NCBI RefSeq assembly: GCF_027594865.1
Contig: NZ_CP089391.1
Coordinates: 7,780,501-7,844,500, forward strand
DNA length: 64,000 bases
Source of the DNA: Bradyrhizobium xenonodulans
GTDB taxonomy: Bacteria > Pseudomonadota > Alphaproteobacteria > Rhizobiales > Xanthobacteraceae
Direction of reading: 5' to 3'
Within the stretch, counting starts at the first letter, position 1; each line of letters opens with the position of its first letter. Made by a program: the position numbers and the translations under genes. Below are positions 8,380-14,321 of this stretch, piece after piece. The notes beneath the pieces were generated by a model that saw nothing but the letters and a program-made list of their open reading frames with translations, ran no database searches and was not told where the DNA came from.

Positions 8380-9441
8380 ATGGTGAACGAAATCATCAAT
8401 GTCCCGGCCCTGCCGACCGACGCATCGGCGGTCGCGCGCATCAAGTCCGAGATCGACATTTCGGATCGCTCGCGCCTGGTCACGTTCGGCGAGCGGGCCC
8501 AGCGCTCGGTGGTCGAGTTCGCCGACCGCATTCTCGCCCAGACCCAGAACCGCGAGCTCGGCGCCACCGGCAAGCTCTTGACGGACATCCTCGGCAAGGC
8601 CCGCGGGCTCGATCCCGCCGACCTCAAGGACAAGGGTTTTCTCACCCGCCTGTTCTCGTCGGCGGAGGCGCGGCTGCGCCGCTTCACCGAGCAGTTCAAC
8701 GACGTCGCCTCGCAGGTCGACCGCGTCTGCGTCGAGCTCGACCGCAACAAGGAGGTCTTGCGCCGCGACATCGCCCTGCTCGACGACCTCTATGAACAGA
8801 CACGGGGCGCGCTCGGCCAGCTCGATATGCACATCGCCGCCGGCAAGGCGTTCACCGAGGAATTCCGCGGCGGCAAGCTCGTCGAGATGGAGCGGGCTGC
8901 GAAGGCGCAAGGCGCGGGCAGCGACGCGATGCTGGCCGCGCAGACCTATCAGGATGCGGTCCAGGCGCTCGACCGGCTGGAGAAGCGCGTCTTCTATCTT
9001 CAGCAGGCACGCCAGATCGGCATCCAGCAGCTGCCGCAGATCCGCATCGTCCAGTCCGGCGACGAGACCCTGATCGAGAATTTGCAGGCCACGACCGAGC
9101 TGACGATTCCCGTATGGAAGCAGAAGATGATCCTGCTGCTCGGCCTGAACCGGCAGAAGTCGGCGCTGGAGCTGCAGAAGACGGTCACCGACGCGACCAA
9201 CGAGATGATACGCCAGGCTTCCGAGATGATGAAGACCCAGGCGATCGAGATCGAGAAGCAGTCGCAGCGCGGCATCGTCGATATCCAGACGCTGGAGAAG
9301 ACCAACCGGGATCTGATCGACACCATCGCCGGCGTGCTCAATGTGCAGGAGCAGGGCCGCACCAAGCGCGCCGAGATCGAGCACCGGATGGCGGAGCTGA
9401 CGGACGAGTTGAAGACCGCGATATCCAAGGCTGCGCCTTGA
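8380..9441 (+). CDS. toxic anion resistance protein, TelA family
   Basis: 353 residues, ATG at 8380 with AAGGAG seven bases upstream. The sequence is strongly helical with long coiled-coil-like stretches. It carries the TelA hallmark region around QARQIGIQQLPQIRIVQSGD and ELTIPVWKQKMILLLGLNRQ. TelA proteins were named for tellurite resistance, but their molecular role is unsettled; they are cytoplasmic and often sit beside XpaC-type membrane proteins. Here it is the first gene of a four-gene operon with a VWA/solute-binding lipoprotein, an XpaC-like protein and a second solute-binding protein, which suggests a work-unit at the membrane rather than simple detoxification. Confidence 0.92.
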   Translation: MVNEIINVPALPTDASAVARIKSEIDISDRSRLVTFGERAQRSVVEFADRILAQTQNRELGATGKLLTDILGKARGLDPADLKDKGFLTRLFSSAEARLRRFTEQFNDVASQVDRVCVELDRNKEVLRRDIALLDDLYEQTRGALGQLDMHIAAGKAFTEEFRGGKLVEMERAAKAQGAGSDAMLAAQTYQDAVQALDRLEKRVFYLQQARQIGIQQLPQIRIVQSGDETLIENLQATTELTIPVWKQKMILLLGLNRQKSALELQKTVTDATNEMIRQASEMMKTQAIEIEKQSQRGIVDIQTLEKTNRDLIDTIAGVLNVQEQGRTKRAEIEHRMAELTDELKTAISKAAP

Positions 9442-9506
9442 TGCGTACTTTGTAACGGTTTCTCGATGAAGCTTCTGCATAAGGGCTGCCGCATGAAGGC
9501 TCGCGC

Positions 9507-11096
9507 ATGAGGACTTTCCGTTTCCTGCGGCGCCCGCTGGCGCTGCTCGCGGCAGTGCCGCTGATGGCCGCGCTGCTGTCGGGCTGCGGCGGGCCCGGGC
9601 CGCAATTCACCATTCTGTCGGGTTCGGAGAACGACATCCTCGAGCCGCTGGTGCAGGAGTTCTGCAAGTCGCGCAACGCGACCTGCACCATGCGCTATCA
9701 GGGCTCGCTCGACATCGCCCTGGCGCTGAAAGCCGGCGATCCCGGCGCCGACGCGGTGTGGCCGGCCGCCTCGATCTGGATCGACATGTTCGACACGACG
9801 CGGCGCGTGAAGATGGTCAAGTCGATCGTGCAGATGCCGGTCATTCTCGGCGTGCGCCGCTCCAAGGCGCAGGAGCTCGGCTGGATCGGCGCCAAGGTAA
9901 CCGCCAAGGACATCCTCGCGGCCGTCGAGGGCGGCAAGCTGAAATTCCTGATGACGTCGGCGACGCAGTCCAATTCGGGCGCGGCCGCCTATCTTGCGAT
10001 GCTGGCGGCCGGCATCGGCAAGCCCGACCTGATCGAGGCCGGCGATCTCGACAAGCCCGAGGTGCTGGCGACGGCGCGGGGATTGCTGAAAGGCGTCGAG
10101 CGCAGCGCGGGCTCCAGCGGCTGGCTCGCCGACCTCTACCGCGACGGCGAGCGCAGCGGCGCACATTACCAGGCGATCTGGAATTACGAAGCCGTCATCA
10201 AGGAAACCAACGACAAGCTGATCGCCGACAACCACGAGCCGCTCTATGCGATCTATCCCGCCGACGGCGTGGCGATTGCCGATTCGCCGCTCGGCTTCGT
10301 CGACCGCGGCCGCGGCAAGGACGTCGAAGGCTTCTTCACCGACCTGCAGGCCTTCCTGCTCAACGGCGATGCGCAAGGCAAGATCGCCAGGACCGGCCGG
10401 CGGGTCGAGATCGGCCGCGCCACGCCGCTGGCGGCCGATCCGAAGACCAATCTCGATCCATCGCGGCCGGTGACCGTGATCCGTCCGCCTGAACCGGCCG
10501 TGATCCAGAAGGCGCTCCTGATCTATCAGGAGGCGCTGCGCCGGCCGTCGCTGACTGCGCTCTGCCTCGACGTCTCCGGCAGCATGCAGGGCGCCGGCGA
10601 AACGCAATTGCTCGACGCCATGCGCTTCCTGCTCACGCCCGCCCGCACGCGCGAGGTGCTGGTGCAATGGACGAAGTCGGATGAGATCCTGGTGCTGCCG
10701 TTCAGCGACCACATTCTCTGGACGGCGCGGGCCAGCGGCGACGAGAACGAGCAGACCGGCCTGCTTGCACGTGCGCTCGAATTGCGGGCCAGCGGCGGCA
10801 CCGACTTCTACACCTGCGGCGCGCAGGCACTCGCCGCCATGAAGCCGCAGCTCGCCGACGGCAAGCATCTGCCGGCCATCGTCATCATGACGGATGGCAA
10901 GAGCCAGGGGGCGCTGTCGACATTCGAGAGCGCCTGGCGCGCGGATGGTCATCGCGTGCCGGTGTTCGGCGTGACGTTCGGCTCCGAGGTCGACCGGGCC
11001 CAGCTCGACAATCTGGCGAAGCTGACCGGAGGTCGCGTGTTCGACGGTAGCAAGAGTCTCACCGACGCGTTCCGCGCCGTACGAGGATACAATTGA
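9507..11096 (+). CDS. lipoprotein fusing a solute-binding domain to a VWA domain
   Basis: 529 residues. The N-terminal signal ends in the lipobox LLSGC (lipidated Cys27). Residues about 32-330 form a bacterial type II solute-binding fold, with TILSGSENDILEPLVQEF near the start and an NSGAAAYLAMLAAG segment typical of this class. Residues about 345-529 form a von Willebrand A domain with the MIDAS motif D355-x-S-x-S (CLDVSGSM), a threonine in ASGGTDFYT and an aspartate in MTDGK, so the metal site looks intact. The product should sit on the periplasmic face of the inner membrane. The following XpaC gene begins directly after its stop codon. A substrate-binding/VWA fusion beside TelA and XpaC has no assigned function that I know of. 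Confidence 0.9.
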   Translation: MRTFRFLRRPLALLAAVPLMAALLSGCGGPGPQFTILSGSENDILEPLVQEFCKSRNATCTMRYQGSLDIALALKAGDPGADAVWPAASIWIDMFDTTRRVKMVKSIVQMPVILGVRRSKAQELGWIGAKVTAKDILAAVEGGKLKFLMTSATQSNSGAAAYLAMLAAGIGKPDLIEAGDLDKPEVLATARGLLKGVERSAGSSGWLADLYRDGERSGAHYQAIWNYEAVIKETNDKLIADNHEPLYAIYPADGVAIADSPLGFVDRGRGKDVEGFFTDLQAFLLNGDAQGKIARTGRRVEIGRATPLAADPKTNLDPSRPVTVIRPPEPAVIQKALLIYQEALRRPSLTALCLDVSGSMQGAGETQLLDAMRFLLTPARTREVLVQWTKSDEILVLPFSDHILWTARASGDENEQTGLLARALELRASGGTDFYTCGAQALAAMKPQLADGKHLPAIVIMTDGKSQGALSTFESAWRADGHRVPVFGVTFGSEVDRAQLDNLAKLTGGRVFDGSKSLTDAFRAVRGYN

Positions 11097-11753
11097 ATGG
11101 CCGCAATGCCGTCCGGGCTTGGCTGGATCGCGGGTGGAGTGGCAGCCGCAGCACTGCTGCCGTCGCTCGCGATCGGGGTCGCGATGCCGTTCTGGATCGC
11201 GCTTGCGATCAGCGCGGTCGCCGGCGGCGGCATCGTCGTGGCGCTGGCGCCGAGGAACCGGTTCGCCGCGCTGGAAGCCAGCGGCGTCGCGCGGGGCAAG
11301 ATCGAGTTTGCCAACGAGCTCTTGGCCGAAGCCGAGCCGCTGGCGGAACGCATGGAAGACACGGCGTCGGCGATCCGGACCCGCGCGGTCGCCGATCGGA
11401 TCCGTCATCTGGTCAAAGTGGCCCGTGACATCTTCGCGGCCATCGAGCGCGATCCGCTGCGGCTCGACCGGGTGCGCCGGTTCCTGACCTATTATCTGCC
11501 GCGTGCCGCCGAGATCGCCGAGGCCTACCATGCGCTGGAGAAAAGCGCCGTGCCCGACACCGCGCGCCTTGCCGCCACCGGGGACATGATCGAGCGGCTC
11601 GACGGCGCCTTCACCCGCTATGCCGCCAATCTCAGGGATGCCGACCTCGACAAGCTGGACATCGAGCTGAAGCTGTTGAAAAGCTCGCTCGACGAGGACA
11701 TCGGCCCGCCGCCGCCGGCAGCCCCGGTCGAGACCAAGAGAGGAACGTCCTGA
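11097..11753 (+). CDS. XpaC-like membrane protein (5-bromo-4-chloroindolyl phosphate hydrolysis family)
   Basis: 218 residues. Two adjacent transmembrane segments (IAGGVAAAALLPSLAIGVAM and FWIALAISAVAGGGIVVAL) precede a long helical cytoplasmic domain. The central part (IRHLVKVARDIFAAIERDP, then RLDRVRRFLTYYLPRAAEIA) matches the XpaC family, whose members adjoin TelA in many bacteria. The family name reflects an old phenotype, not a proven enzyme. The ATG immediately follows the stop of the VWA lipoprotein gene, and its own TGA overlaps the next start (TGATG), so coupling is tight. It is probably the membrane partner of TelA. Confidence 0.88.
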   Translation: MAAMPSGLGWIAGGVAAAALLPSLAIGVAMPFWIALAISAVAGGGIVVALAPRNRFAALEASGVARGKIEFANELLAEAEPLAERMEDTASAIRTRAVADRIRHLVKVARDIFAAIERDPLRLDRVRRFLTYYLPRAAEIAEAYHALEKSAVPDTARLAATGDMIERLDGAFTRYAANLRDADLDKLDIELKLLKSSLDEDIGPPPPAAPVETKRGTS

Positions 11754-12862
11754 TGGCTATCTCGCGCCGCGCCTTCGGCATCGGCCTCGTCGCTGCGAGC
11801 GCGGCGGCGACCGGCGGCTATGTTTATCTGCGCGAGCATCCCGAAATCGCCGGCCGCTTCGGCGAGGCCAAGCGGCTGTTCGGCTTTGCCGGCGGCGAGA
11901 AGGAGGGTTTTCTCGCCAACGCCCGCGTCAAGAATACGCTGGAGCGCCGCTTCGGCCTGATCCTCGACGGCCGCCGCGCAGGCTCGGTCGAGATGGTCCG
12001 CGAGCGCGCGCTGCTCGACCAGAAGCCGCAATTCCTCTGGCCTTCCTCCTCCGTGCTGGTCGAAGTGGCGCGTTCGTCAGGCGTCAAGATCTCGCGCGAC
12101 CAGGTCATCTTCAACTCGCCGATCGTGCTCTACTCCTGGGACCGCATCGCCGACGGGCTCGTGAAGGGCGGCATCGCCCAGCCTGCCGGCGGGCCGCGCT
12201 ACACGGTGGATCTGTCGAAGCTGCTCAAGGCCATCATCGCCGGCGAGAACTGGTCTGCGATCGGCGTCGCCGACCTGTTCGGTCGTGCGCGCGTGGTCTC
12301 GACCGACCCGAACAAATCCAATTCAGGCTTCATGTTCGCAGGCCTTGCCGCGAGCCTCTTGTCGGGCGACGTGGTGATGCCGGAGACGCTGAGCAAGATC
12401 GACGGCGATGTCGCCACCGTTTTTCGCCGCATGGGTTTCAAGCCGCCGTCTTCAGGCAAACTGTTCGACGACTACGTCGCCGGCGGCGCGGGCGCACAGC
12501 CGCTGATCGTCGGCTACGAGAACCAGCTGGTCGAATGGGTGCTCCAGGACGCAGAGCGCTGGAAGCGGCTCGAGGCGAACGCGCCGGCCAAGCCTGTCAT
12601 TCTCTATCCGCAGCCCACGGTGTTCTCGGCCCATCCGCTCATCAGCATCAACCGGCAGGCCGACGATCTCATCGAGGCCCTGACGAGCGAGAGCCTGCTC
12701 GAAATGGCCTGGGAGGACCACGGCTTCCGCGGGCCGCTCGGCACCATCGGCAAGGCGCGCAACGCGTTGTTGCAGTCGCGCCTGCTGGAACGGATCGACG
12801 CCGTGCTGCCGATGCCCGATGCGCCGGTGATGCTGGCCCTGCTCGACCGGCTGGCGGCCTAA
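11753..12862 (+). CDS. membrane-anchored extracellular solute-binding protein of the TelA operon
   Basis: 369 residues. The start overlaps the XpaC stop by one base (TGATG). A hydrophobic N-terminus behind SRRAF (GIGLVAASAAATGGYVYL) may be a Tat-type signal or an uncleaved anchor. The rest is a type II solute-binding fold with the DPNKSNSGFMFAGLAASLL block, a counterpart of the binding half of the VWA lipoprotein but lacking a VWA domain. No ABC permease or ATPase gene is nearby, so this binding protein presumably serves the TelA/VWA/XpaC assembly rather than uptake. The stop codon TAA (12860-12862) lies within the edge of the repeat at 12858-12962. Confidence 0.85.
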   Translation: MAISRRAFGIGLVAASAAATGGYVYLREHPEIAGRFGEAKRLFGFAGGEKEGFLANARVKNTLERRFGLILDGRRAGSVEMVRERALLDQKPQFLWPSSSVLVEVARSSGVKISRDQVIFNSPIVLYSWDRIADGLVKGGIAQPAGGPRYTVDLSKLLKAIIAGENWSAIGVADLFGRARVVSTDPNKSNSGFMFAGLAASLLSGDVVMPETLSKIDGDVATVFRRMGFKPPSSGKLFDDYVAGGAGAQPLIVGYENQLVEWVLQDAERWKRLEANAPAKPVILYPQPTVFSAHPLISINRQADDLIEALTSESLLEMAWEDHGFRGPLGTIGKARNALLQSRLLERIDAVLPMPDAPVMLALLDRLAA

Positions 12863-12962
12863 AGCGCGATGAGATTACGATGAATCGTCATCGCGCTTTA
12901 GGTTGTTGTTTGAGCATGATCTTTTCGGAAAACCGCTTCGCACTTTTCCGGATCATGCTCTA
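12858..12962 (+). repeat. dispersed two-hairpin repeat, copy 2 (long form)
   Basis: Same two units as copy 1, in the opposite orientation: the CTAAAGCGCG palindrome, then GAGCATGATC...GATCATGCTC. It fills the entire gap between two convergent genes and contains both of their stop codons (TAA at 12860-12862 for the binding protein; TAG at 12962-12960 for serA). It probably doubles as a bidirectional terminator. Confidence 0.88.
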
Positions 12963-14204
12963 ATGCTCGAACACCAGCCGCGCGCCGATCGTGCCTTCCA
13001 GGCTGCGGATCTGCGCAAGCAATGCGCCTGAATCCTCGCCGCCGAGGTCGGCGTCGAGCACGACGTAGCCGAGGTCGCCGGCGGTCTCCAGATATTGCGC
13101 GGCGATGTTGATGTCGCGCTGGAGGAAAACCTCGTTCAGCCGCCGCAACATGCCCGGCACGTTGCGGTGGACATGGCTGAAGCGCGCCCCTGCGGGCCGC
13201 AGATGCAATTGCACCTCCGGGAAATTCACCGCGCCCATGGTCGATCCGGTGATGAAATAGTCGACCAGCTTGCGCGCGACCTCGCCGCCAATGCGCTCCT
13301 GCGCCTCCTCGGTCGAGCCGCCGATATGCGGGGTGAGGATGACATTGCCAAGGCCTTGCATCGGGCTCTTGAAGCGATCCGAATTCGAGGATGGCTCGAC
13401 CGGAAACACGTCGACGGCGGCACCGGCGATGTGACCGTCACGCAAGGCGCCCGCGAGCGCATCGAGATCGACCACGGTGCCGCGGCTGTTGTTGATGAAG
13501 AACGAGCCCGGCTTCATCGTCCGCAGCTCCTTCTCGCCGATCATGCCTGCGGTTTCCGGCGTCTCCGGCACGTGCAGGCTGACGACGTCGCTCTGCGCCA
13601 GCAGCTCTTCCAGCTTCTCGACCGGCTCGGTGTTGCCATGACGGAGCTTGTCGGTGCGGTCGTAATAGATCACCCGCATCCCCATCGCCTCGGCCAGCGT
13701 CGAGAGCTGCGAGCCGATATTGCCGTAGCCGACGATGCCGAGGGTGCGGCCGCGCACCTCGCGGCTGCCCGCCGCGGATTTGTCCCAGCCGCCCTCATGC
13801 GCCGACACCGAGCGCGGAAAGATCTGGCGCAGCAGCATCACGATCTCGCCGATCACGAGCTCGGCGACGCTGCGCGTGTTGGAGAACGGCGCGTTGAACA
13901 CGGGAATGCCGCGCTTGCGCGCTGCCAAGAGATCGACCTGATTGGTGCCGACGCTGAAGCAGCCGACCGCGAGAAGCTGGTCGGCGGCCGCGAGCACGTC
14001 ATCGGTGATCTGGGTGCGCGAGCGGATGCCGAGCAGAGACACGCCCTTGAGCGCGCGCCGCAGATCCTCGCCGTCCAGCGCCTTGGTCAGCCGCTCGACA
14101 TTGGTGAAGCCCGCGCTCTTGAACAGGTCGACCGCGCTGTCATTGACGCCTTCGAGCAACAGCGCCTTCGCGTTCCGCTCGAGGCTTTGGCCTGAGGCTG
14201 ACAT
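12960..14204 (-). CDS. serA: D-3-phosphoglycerate dehydrogenase
   Basis: 414 residues from the ATG at 14204; earlier in-frame starts lie in non-conserved sequence. It is a D-isomer-specific 2-hydroxyacid dehydrogenase with the nucleotide-binding GIVGYGNIGSQ motif and the catalytic block around HIGGSTEEAQE. A C-terminal ACT regulatory domain (about residues 340-414, RNVPGMLRRLNEVFLQRDIN) follows. The length and single ACT domain match the E. coli-type enzyme rather than the long mycobacterial form. It catalyses the first step of serine synthesis, and the ACT domain suggests serine feedback. It is convergent with the TelA operon across the repeat, and its stop codon is supplied by that repeat. 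Confidence 0.93.
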   Translation of the reverse strand: MSASGQSLERNAKALLLEGVNDSAVDLFKSAGFTNVERLTKALDGEDLRRALKGVSLLGIRSRTQITDDVLAAADQLLAVGCFSVGTNQVDLLAARKRGIPVFNAPFSNTRSVAELVIGEIVMLLRQIFPRSVSAHEGGWDKSAAGSREVRGRTLGIVGYGNIGSQLSTLAEAMGMRVIYYDRTDKLRHGNTEPVEKLEELLAQSDVVSLHVPETPETAGMIGEKELRTMKPGSFFINNSRGTVVDLDALAGALRDGHIAGAAVDVFPVEPSSNSDRFKSPMQGLGNVILTPHIGGSTEEAQERIGGEVARKLVDYFITGSTMGAVNFPEVQLHLRPAGARFSHVHRNVPGMLRRLNEVFLQRDINIAAQYLETAGDLGYVVLDADLGGEDSGALLAQIRSLEGTIGARLVFEH

Positions 14205-14321
14205 GGAATCTCCGTGAGTCACGATTTGCCGCAGCTCATAGACCGCGGAGGAGAGGCAGCACAATAGGGCTTGGATAGGGGGAGAAGATGGCGGAGTGGA
14301 TGGGCCTGGCATCCCACTAGC

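Follow-up and report, generated by a model that had tools for sequence, protein, structure and literature searches.

We analysed a 64,000-nucleotide stretch of the Bradyrhizobium xenonodulans genome (assembly GCF_027594865.1, contig NZ_CP089391.1, positions 7,780,501 to 7,844,500; hereafter the window), in which four consecutive genes encode TelA, a lipoprotein that joins a solute-binding protein (SBP) to a VWA domain, an XpaC-like membrane protein and a second SBP, here called P4. These four genes form a real module, scattered among bacteria and grouped beyond chance. We tentatively favour the reading that the module is a membrane-tethered two-SBP receptor, which would signal through XpaC and usually to TelA, rather than an importer. 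We regard the addition of a putative receptor arm of two SBPs to TelA-XpaC as a new form of that pair: the literature searched gave no description of the four-gene module or of TelA-XpaC with solute-binding proteins (a prior mention is possible), and the phrase 'substrate-binding and VWA domain' occurred in none of its papers. The window belongs to an 8.28-Mb single-contig genome, and its nearest named locus matches are from Bradyrhizobium, with P4 97–99% identical. The features of the locus are as follows.

8380–9441, + strand: telA, open reading frame (ORF) for an all-helical TelA-family protein of 353 aa, presumably cytoplasmic
9507–11096, + strand: SBP-VWA lipoprotein gene, ORF of 529 aa, SBP_bac_11 and VWA_3 over cut-off
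9576–9587, + strand: lipobox LSGC with Cys27 of the SBP-VWA lipoprotein, from an alignment of homologues
9597–10541, + strand: solute-binding domain of the SBP-VWA lipoprotein, residues 31–345
10551–11090, + strand: VWA domain of the SBP-VWA lipoprotein, VWA_3 over cut-off
10569–10583, 10800–10802 and 10893–10895, + strand: metal ion-dependent adhesion site (MIDAS) residues D355, S357 and S359, T432, and D463, respectively
11097–11753, + strand: xpaC-like gene, ORF of 218 aa, PF10112 over cut-off
11753–12862, + strand: P4, second SBP gene, ORF of 369 aa, aligned by hhalign to the SBP portion of the VWA lipoprotein
12858–12902, no strand: 15-bp perfect inverted repeat over the P4 stop, a possible transcription end or dispersed palindrome

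The initial annotation had described four plus-strand genes with a 65-bp gap, a stop-start junction and a TGATG overlap, and this arrangement was confirmed to the base. The gap (9442–9506) separates telA from the SBP-VWA gene, the TGA of the latter (11094–11096) directly precedes the ATG of the xpaC-like gene (11097), and the xpaC-like gene and P4 overlap by one base.

A scan of genome contigs with a P4 profile built from four sequences yielded 79 loci from the best 80 of 114 confirmed matches. Many of these loci are in metagenome assemblies; their titles name Bradyrhizobium, Caulobacter, Methylobacterium, Desulfobacterota, Clostridia, Bacteroidota, Spirochaetes, Chloroflexi, Acidobacteriota and others, and plasmid records add Sphaerotilus, Variovorax, Deinococcus and Nonomuraea. 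Altogether 136 loci were labelled with profiles (L002–L005, L007–L089, L124–L171 and the window; L090–L123 are outside this count), and 134 of them were over the score limits. All four genes are present in 77 of the 134, a set that contains many close relatives and a few genomes fetched twice. The rest comprise 27 loci with TelA and XpaC, 12 with VWA, XpaC and P4 (the label of four of these, L002–L005, simply reflects the 4-kb length of the fetched pieces), 10 with TelA alone and 8 with other combinations, mostly cut at contig ends. At every one of the 77 four-gene loci the genes lie on one strand in a rotation of a single cyclic order: TelA-VWA-XpaC-P4 at 39, VWA-XpaC-P4-TelA at 33 and P4-TelA-VWA-XpaC at 5. 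The grouping is beyond chance because this one-strand order is kept across phyla and because, within the genus, presence is nearly all-or-none. In particular, searches of 98 Bradyrhizobium congeners matched TelA in 12, XpaC in 10, the full SBP-VWA protein in 9 and P4 in 10. All four genes occur together in nine of these genomes (split over two contigs in G089, and with one stop codon in the TelA match of G049), TelA and XpaC only in one (G101), a P4 fragment only in one (the last 144 residues, G053), TelA only in two (G061, G079) and none in 85.

In seven loci of Bradyrhizobium strains (L018–L023, L027) similarity to the window spans only the four genes, from 8374/8384 to 12852/12865; since it starts and stops with them, the unit moved as a block. 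Lone 3′ remnants of P4 (residues 226–367; L169 8015–8485, L044 8001–8426), in a Bradyrhizobium genome without other module genes, are the footprint of a loss. Patchy spread and movement as a block would also suit a system of defence against phages or colicins, akin to the ter/TelA resistance genes; resistance to phages and colicins has been linked with TelA and ter genes, and a phage TelA family exists (phrog_5890). We consider this very improbable: none of the four module proteins matches a PADLOC model at E ≤ 0.01, the flanking gene clusters contain no conserved defence-like neighbour, and no P4 relative was confirmed in IMG/VR with the patterns used.

The association is closest between the two binding proteins. 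TelA was matched in 50 of 299 genomes of the phylum; with seven weak matches and the window left out, 43 loci from 42 genomes were fetched, and these hold six full modules, 26 cases of TelA with an XpaC-like gene and 11 of TelA without a clear XpaC-like gene. The XpaC-like labels there come from our own profiles at 35–90 bits, and of two checked against Pfam L138 was over and L125 under the cut-off. Neither P4 nor a full SBP-VWA gene occurred without its mate at any of the 43 loci. Among 247 genomes of the phylum of Desulfamplus (L073), P4 was found in four and full-length SBP-VWA in the same four, for which a random draw gives a chance of 6.6e-9, ignoring kinship; two of the four had contributed profile rows, and in another 59 genomes the match is confined to the VWA part or to a short stretch. 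Across 27 loci (mostly thinned at 75% P4 identity, with four added without thinning), the Spearman correlation of pairwise distances was highest for P4-VWA (rho 0.924), followed by VWA-TelA (0.829), P4-TelA (0.827), VWA-XpaC (0.76), P4-XpaC (0.736) and TelA-XpaC (0.69), and 0 of 999 permutations reached the observed value for each of the six pairs. Intact P4 and the VWA lipoprotein accompany each other and show the closest co-divergence. The initial annotation had made its proposal depend on whether the four genes keep company in other genomes, and their co-occurrence is far beyond chance.

The lipoprotein matches two Pfam families, SBP_bac_11 (42.2 bits, cut-off 25) and VWA_3 (30.4 bits, cut-off 27), and its predicted model has a predicted local distance difference test score (pLDDT) of 90.9 and a predicted template modelling score of 0.85. 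Both its lipobox and its intact MIDAS, as first annotated, are present and conserved: the lipobox cysteine is found in 37 of 38 aligned homologues, the window included, and each of the five residues of the MIDAS pattern DxSxS...T...D in 38 of 38. The residue after Cys27 is Gly, which by the E. coli rule would sort the lipoprotein to the outer membrane. The solute-binding domain carries the motifs GSE (39–41), GSLD (66–69), SNSG (155–158), GSSG (202–205) and NYE (226–228), within which S40, E41, G66, D69, S155, N156, S203, S204, N226, Y227 and E228 are invariant in all 38 sequences. A relative of this protein is named 'Substrate-binding and VWA domain-containing protein' in RefSeq, an annotation name only; the Variovorax entry WP_162570944, for example, has ~29% identity to it over 95%.

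P4 matches no Pfam family. We nonetheless call it an SBP because in a profile comparison it aligns over 295 columns with the solute-binding half of the lipoprotein (hhalign 99.6%, E 5.6e-24), with the GSE/GGEK, GS, SNSG, SSG and YE motifs in register; judged by this alignment P4 is a paralogue of that half, and the second SBP proposed at first stands. In the test for class II solute-binding proteins the two-lobed SBP fold was found, and the folds closest to it include those of sulphate-binding proteins, hexose-phosphate binders and HptA. Residues G77, S78, S189, Y255 and E256 of P4 are invariant in 33 of 33 homologues, and the conserved residues of both SBPs probably line a ligand pocket. At its N-terminus P4 has a hydrophobic stretch at about residues 7–25 (by eye). 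A short stretch of this kind is seen across the 33 homologues together with a glycine conserved in 30 of them, and no lipobox was seen by eye, so that P4 looks membrane-anchored by an uncleaved-looking N-terminal segment. Both binding proteins had been placed outside the inner membrane, which agrees with their tethered appearance. The P4 family comprises at least 1246 protein clusters at E ≤ 1e-3 among 8000 candidates scored, and 117 of 120 clusters listed have no precomputed Pfam domain.

TelA scores 319.1 bits against PF05816 (cut-off 30) and is predicted to be an elongated all-helical protein, with long helices at residues 95–164, 181–281 and 302–350 in a model of moderate confidence (pLDDT 72.2). 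XpaC scores 128.9 bits against PF10112 (cut-off 29.8) and has two N-terminal hydrophobic segments, at about residues 10–30 and 33–51 by eye, followed by a longer polar part. PF10112 is entitled 'Halogen_Hydrol', and hydrolysis of 5-bromo-4-chloroindolyl phosphate is attached to this family by name only. Pfam fails to recognise the XpaC-like proteins at three loci (L007, L010 and L151). Two XpaC-like genes occur within the full module at L071, and at L155 (8037–9458) TelA is followed by two tandem XpaC-like genes with no SBPs. As to function, no biochemical role for TelA and XpaC was stated in the literature searched. The core sigma-W regulon of B. subtilis is listed with xpaC-yaaN (PMC3498285), the L. 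lactis pair llmg_1115-1116 stands in a table of a CesSR-related study as 10.3- and 3.4-fold up (PMC3139573), and Listeria lmo1966-1967 is given as modestly induced by garvicin KS (log2 0.61 and 0.63) in a paper that also reports, citing Collins 2010, a telA insertion mutant 4-fold more sensitive to nisin and 2-fold more sensitive to tellurite (PMC12791056). According to these parts of the Firmicute literature, the two proteins that the initial annotation had paired act elsewhere as an envelope-stress pair.

From these features we infer ligand binding, contacts, a direction of signalling and a protective output. P4 and the lipoprotein, two paralogous clamshell SBPs outside the inner membrane, would form a ligand-responsive pair, in which the VWA MIDAS may contact P4 or another partner in a divalent-cation-dependent manner and ligand-dependent closure of P4, the lipoprotein or both would alter that contact. 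The anchored pair could then change the state of the two-segment membrane protein XpaC, which in turn may adjust TelA, where present, or another cytoplasmic partner at the membrane, and TelA would then protect the membrane under envelope or toxic-anion stress. A more specific proposal, which we regard as possible if doubtful, is that the module represents a separate transmembrane receptor class, with anchored P4 and the VWA-fused lipoprotein as a heteromer, XpaC as the transducer and, as an exchangeable output, TelA or a different coiled-coil protein.

The same parts could serve as scaffolds, the periplasmic pair and the VWA domain being an assembly or tethering device for an XpaC membrane complex that senses no ligand. 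VWA domains commonly mediate metal-dependent protein contacts, P4 looks anchored, and TelA and XpaC are envelope-stress proteins; however, the putative pocket motifs are among the most conserved residues of both SBPs, unlike what would be expected of a decayed pocket, and we judge this alternative quite unlikely.

The initial annotation had placed TelA at the end of the proposed signal chain, and as an obligate end it does not hold. Eight loci of the contig scan carry VWA and P4, seven of them with XpaC, without an adjacent TelA, some close to the end of a contig. On a search of the whole genomes, TelA had no match in seven of these eight, several of which are metagenome assemblies in which absence may be overstated, and a distant match of 99 bits in the eighth. 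TelA is an optional member of the module. At the TelA-less locus L074, P4 is followed by a gene for a coiled-coil protein whose PspA/IM30 match stays below threshold (23.9 bits, cut-off 33.9). Directly upstream of another TelA-less module (L045, 2113–5538) lie a second VWA protein of the YfbK type and an ion channel-HD domain fusion. At four P4-TelA-VWA-XpaC loci (L007, L009, L010 and L151) the TelA is deeply different, yet the SBP pair is the same. In the TelA tree the module label takes nine changes; starred branches force at least seven of them, and at least one of the nine (L060) is an artefact of a contig edge.

Persistence of the VWA-XpaC-P4 trio without TelA would also suit a ligand-gated channel or permease made of XpaC, the lipoprotein and P4, with TelA as a plug or regulator inside and the lipoprotein resembling alpha2-delta, the VWA-containing auxiliary subunit of calcium channels. 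The VWA domain gives profile matches to calcium-activated chloride channel regulators, but this similarity is generic to the VWA superfamily, and XpaC, with just two short hydrophobic segments, shows no recognised pore, which makes a channel improbable.

The converse variant, with the receptor arm missing, is seen in the Bradyrhizobium-like genome G101 (L167), which keeps TelA and XpaC and has neither SBP gene at the locus or elsewhere in the genome. Its TelA sits inside the Bradyrhizobium module clade as sister to L021 (support 83, in a quick tree with many long branches); because it nests there while the SBP genes are absent, both SBP genes, which are not adjacent in the module, seem to have been lost.

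The strongest competitor of the receptor reading is that the SBPs are capture proteins, which sequester a toxic oxyanion, scavenge a solute or feed a distant ATP-binding cassette (ABC) importer, with TelA-XpaC as a separate resistance arm. This would fit the annotation of TelA as toxic anion resistance, the nearness of the SBP fold to sulphate-binding proteins, and an alignment in which GSE and GS match the beginning of ferric- and molybdate-binding proteins. ABC genes bear on it most directly. No ABC ATPase lies within 5 kb of the window module, whereas in a homology scan an ABC ATPase-like ORF was found within 5 kb at 20 of 89 module loci compared with 3 of 45 other labelled loci. Three of these ORFs were confirmed as PF00005. 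An earlier strict motif scan, which was too strict and is superseded, had found ABC ATPases at 5 of 89 module loci, so the absence of ABC genes is less clean than that scan suggested; the ORFs at the 20 loci speak for capture. Seven of the 20 loci (L018–L021, L023, L025, L027) share one Bradyrhizobium neighbourhood, with the ORF 1.4–1.7 kb upstream of TelA. At the others the ORFs lie in differing places, including within 50 bp downstream of the module at L037 and L051. No ABC gene is a conserved partner of the module, permeases and unlinked partners being outside the search, and the original observation that no ABC transporter stands beside the binding proteins thus survives both for the window and, as the absence of a conserved partner, across loci.

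Other neighbours recur loosely. Single-linkage clustering of flanking ORFs at thinned module loci gave loose clusters of signalling-domain genes (5 loci), alkaline phosphatase (3), YibE/F (3) and ABC ATPases (3), and one overlapping antisense ORF group accompanies the alkaline phosphatase and YibE/F clusters. By eye and without profiles, no histidine kinase or response regulator was seen among the neighbouring ORFs of the window; the signalling-type genes near five loci form one loose cluster. An alkaline phosphatase and a YibE/F gene lie 3.0–4.4 kb from the modules of L067, L073 and L080, which are of different lineages, and at none of the other loci of the 136-locus scan; this proximity was noticed after the fact. 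In Sphaerotilus (L007) PhoX lies 4 bp upstream of P4, which brings to four the lineages with alkaline phosphatase and YibE/F, or PhoX, near the module, and the L073 neighbourhood also has PPK2. The phosphatase and PhoX genes add to the case for capture. Our best guess for the ligand is a phosphate- or sulphate-bearing solute. Flotillin/SPFH-type genes occur at five TelA or module loci (L010, L084, L088, L157, L168); the one at L168 overlaps the TelA ORF, and L084 has an NfeD-like and L010 a YqiJ-like partner.

Against capture, no ABC ORF is a conserved neighbour, an anchored SBP and a VWA fusion are an odd design for delivery, simple scavenging would not need intact P4 and lipoprotein to keep together, and G101 lacks both SBPs yet has kept TelA-XpaC. 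We therefore regard capture as unlikely, though it deserves serious attention, and continue to favour a receptor.

The receptor reading can be compared with several known systems. Sulphate-, molybdate- and hexose-phosphate-binding SBPs (Sbp, ModA, AfuA) serve ABC importers and have the fold and several motif positions in common with the module SBPs. Unlike them, the module SBPs are lipid-anchored and VWA-fused, or membrane-anchored, and have no conserved ABC neighbour. HptA, an SBP of this fold, is described as signalling through a changed contact with a membrane kinase (PMC8774646). In S. aureus HptASR the signal goes to the histidine kinase HptS, whereas the module has no conserved kinase and two paralogous SBPs, one of them VWA-fused. 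The Firmicute xpaC-telA (yaaN) operons of B. subtilis, L. monocytogenes and L. lactis contain adjacent members of the XpaC and TelA families, both of which are in the four-gene module; in the cited passages these units are named as XpaC and TelA alone, and the module adds a periplasmic ligand-binding arm.

The kla (kil-tel) tellurite operon of RK2/RP4 and pWW53 resembles the module in that KlaB belongs to the TelA family. KlaA, too, is related to TelA (PF05816, 41 bits for RP4 and, just under the cut-off of 30, 28.7 bits for pWW53), and pWW53 KlaC matches none of the VWA, P4 and XpaC profiles, and we rejected an identification of the module with the RK2 kla/tel operon. The klaA genes of RP4 (L090, 3117–3890) and pWW53 (L091, 4124–4897) encode diverged TelA relatives, so that the kla operon pairs two TelA-like proteins; two adjacent TelA-like genes are also found in G276 (L160). 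Anantharaman, Iyer and Aravind reportedly treated TelA in 2012 as part of membrane-linked chemical stress (Ter-dependent) systems.

Downstream of the module, the repeat at 12858–12902 has a near-identical 39-bp copy at 2686–2728 in the window, and the two look more like copies of a dispersed palindromic element than like a private terminator. A second, imperfect palindrome (12909–12963, 13-nt arms, 92%) lies between P4 and a convergent ORF (12960–14312) that by eye resembles phosphoglycerate dehydrogenase.

Many bacteria carry TelA and XpaC, which in Firmicutes respond to cell-envelope stress and tellurite. If they are served here by their own ligand-binding receptor, the ligand of P4 and the lipoprotein would tell what the pair listens to. 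Such a system would be an SBP-based receptor outside ABC, TRAP and TTT transport, kinases and chemoreceptors, would explain what TelA-XpaC responds to, and would widen the roles of solute-binding proteins and open a way to a function for the P4 family.

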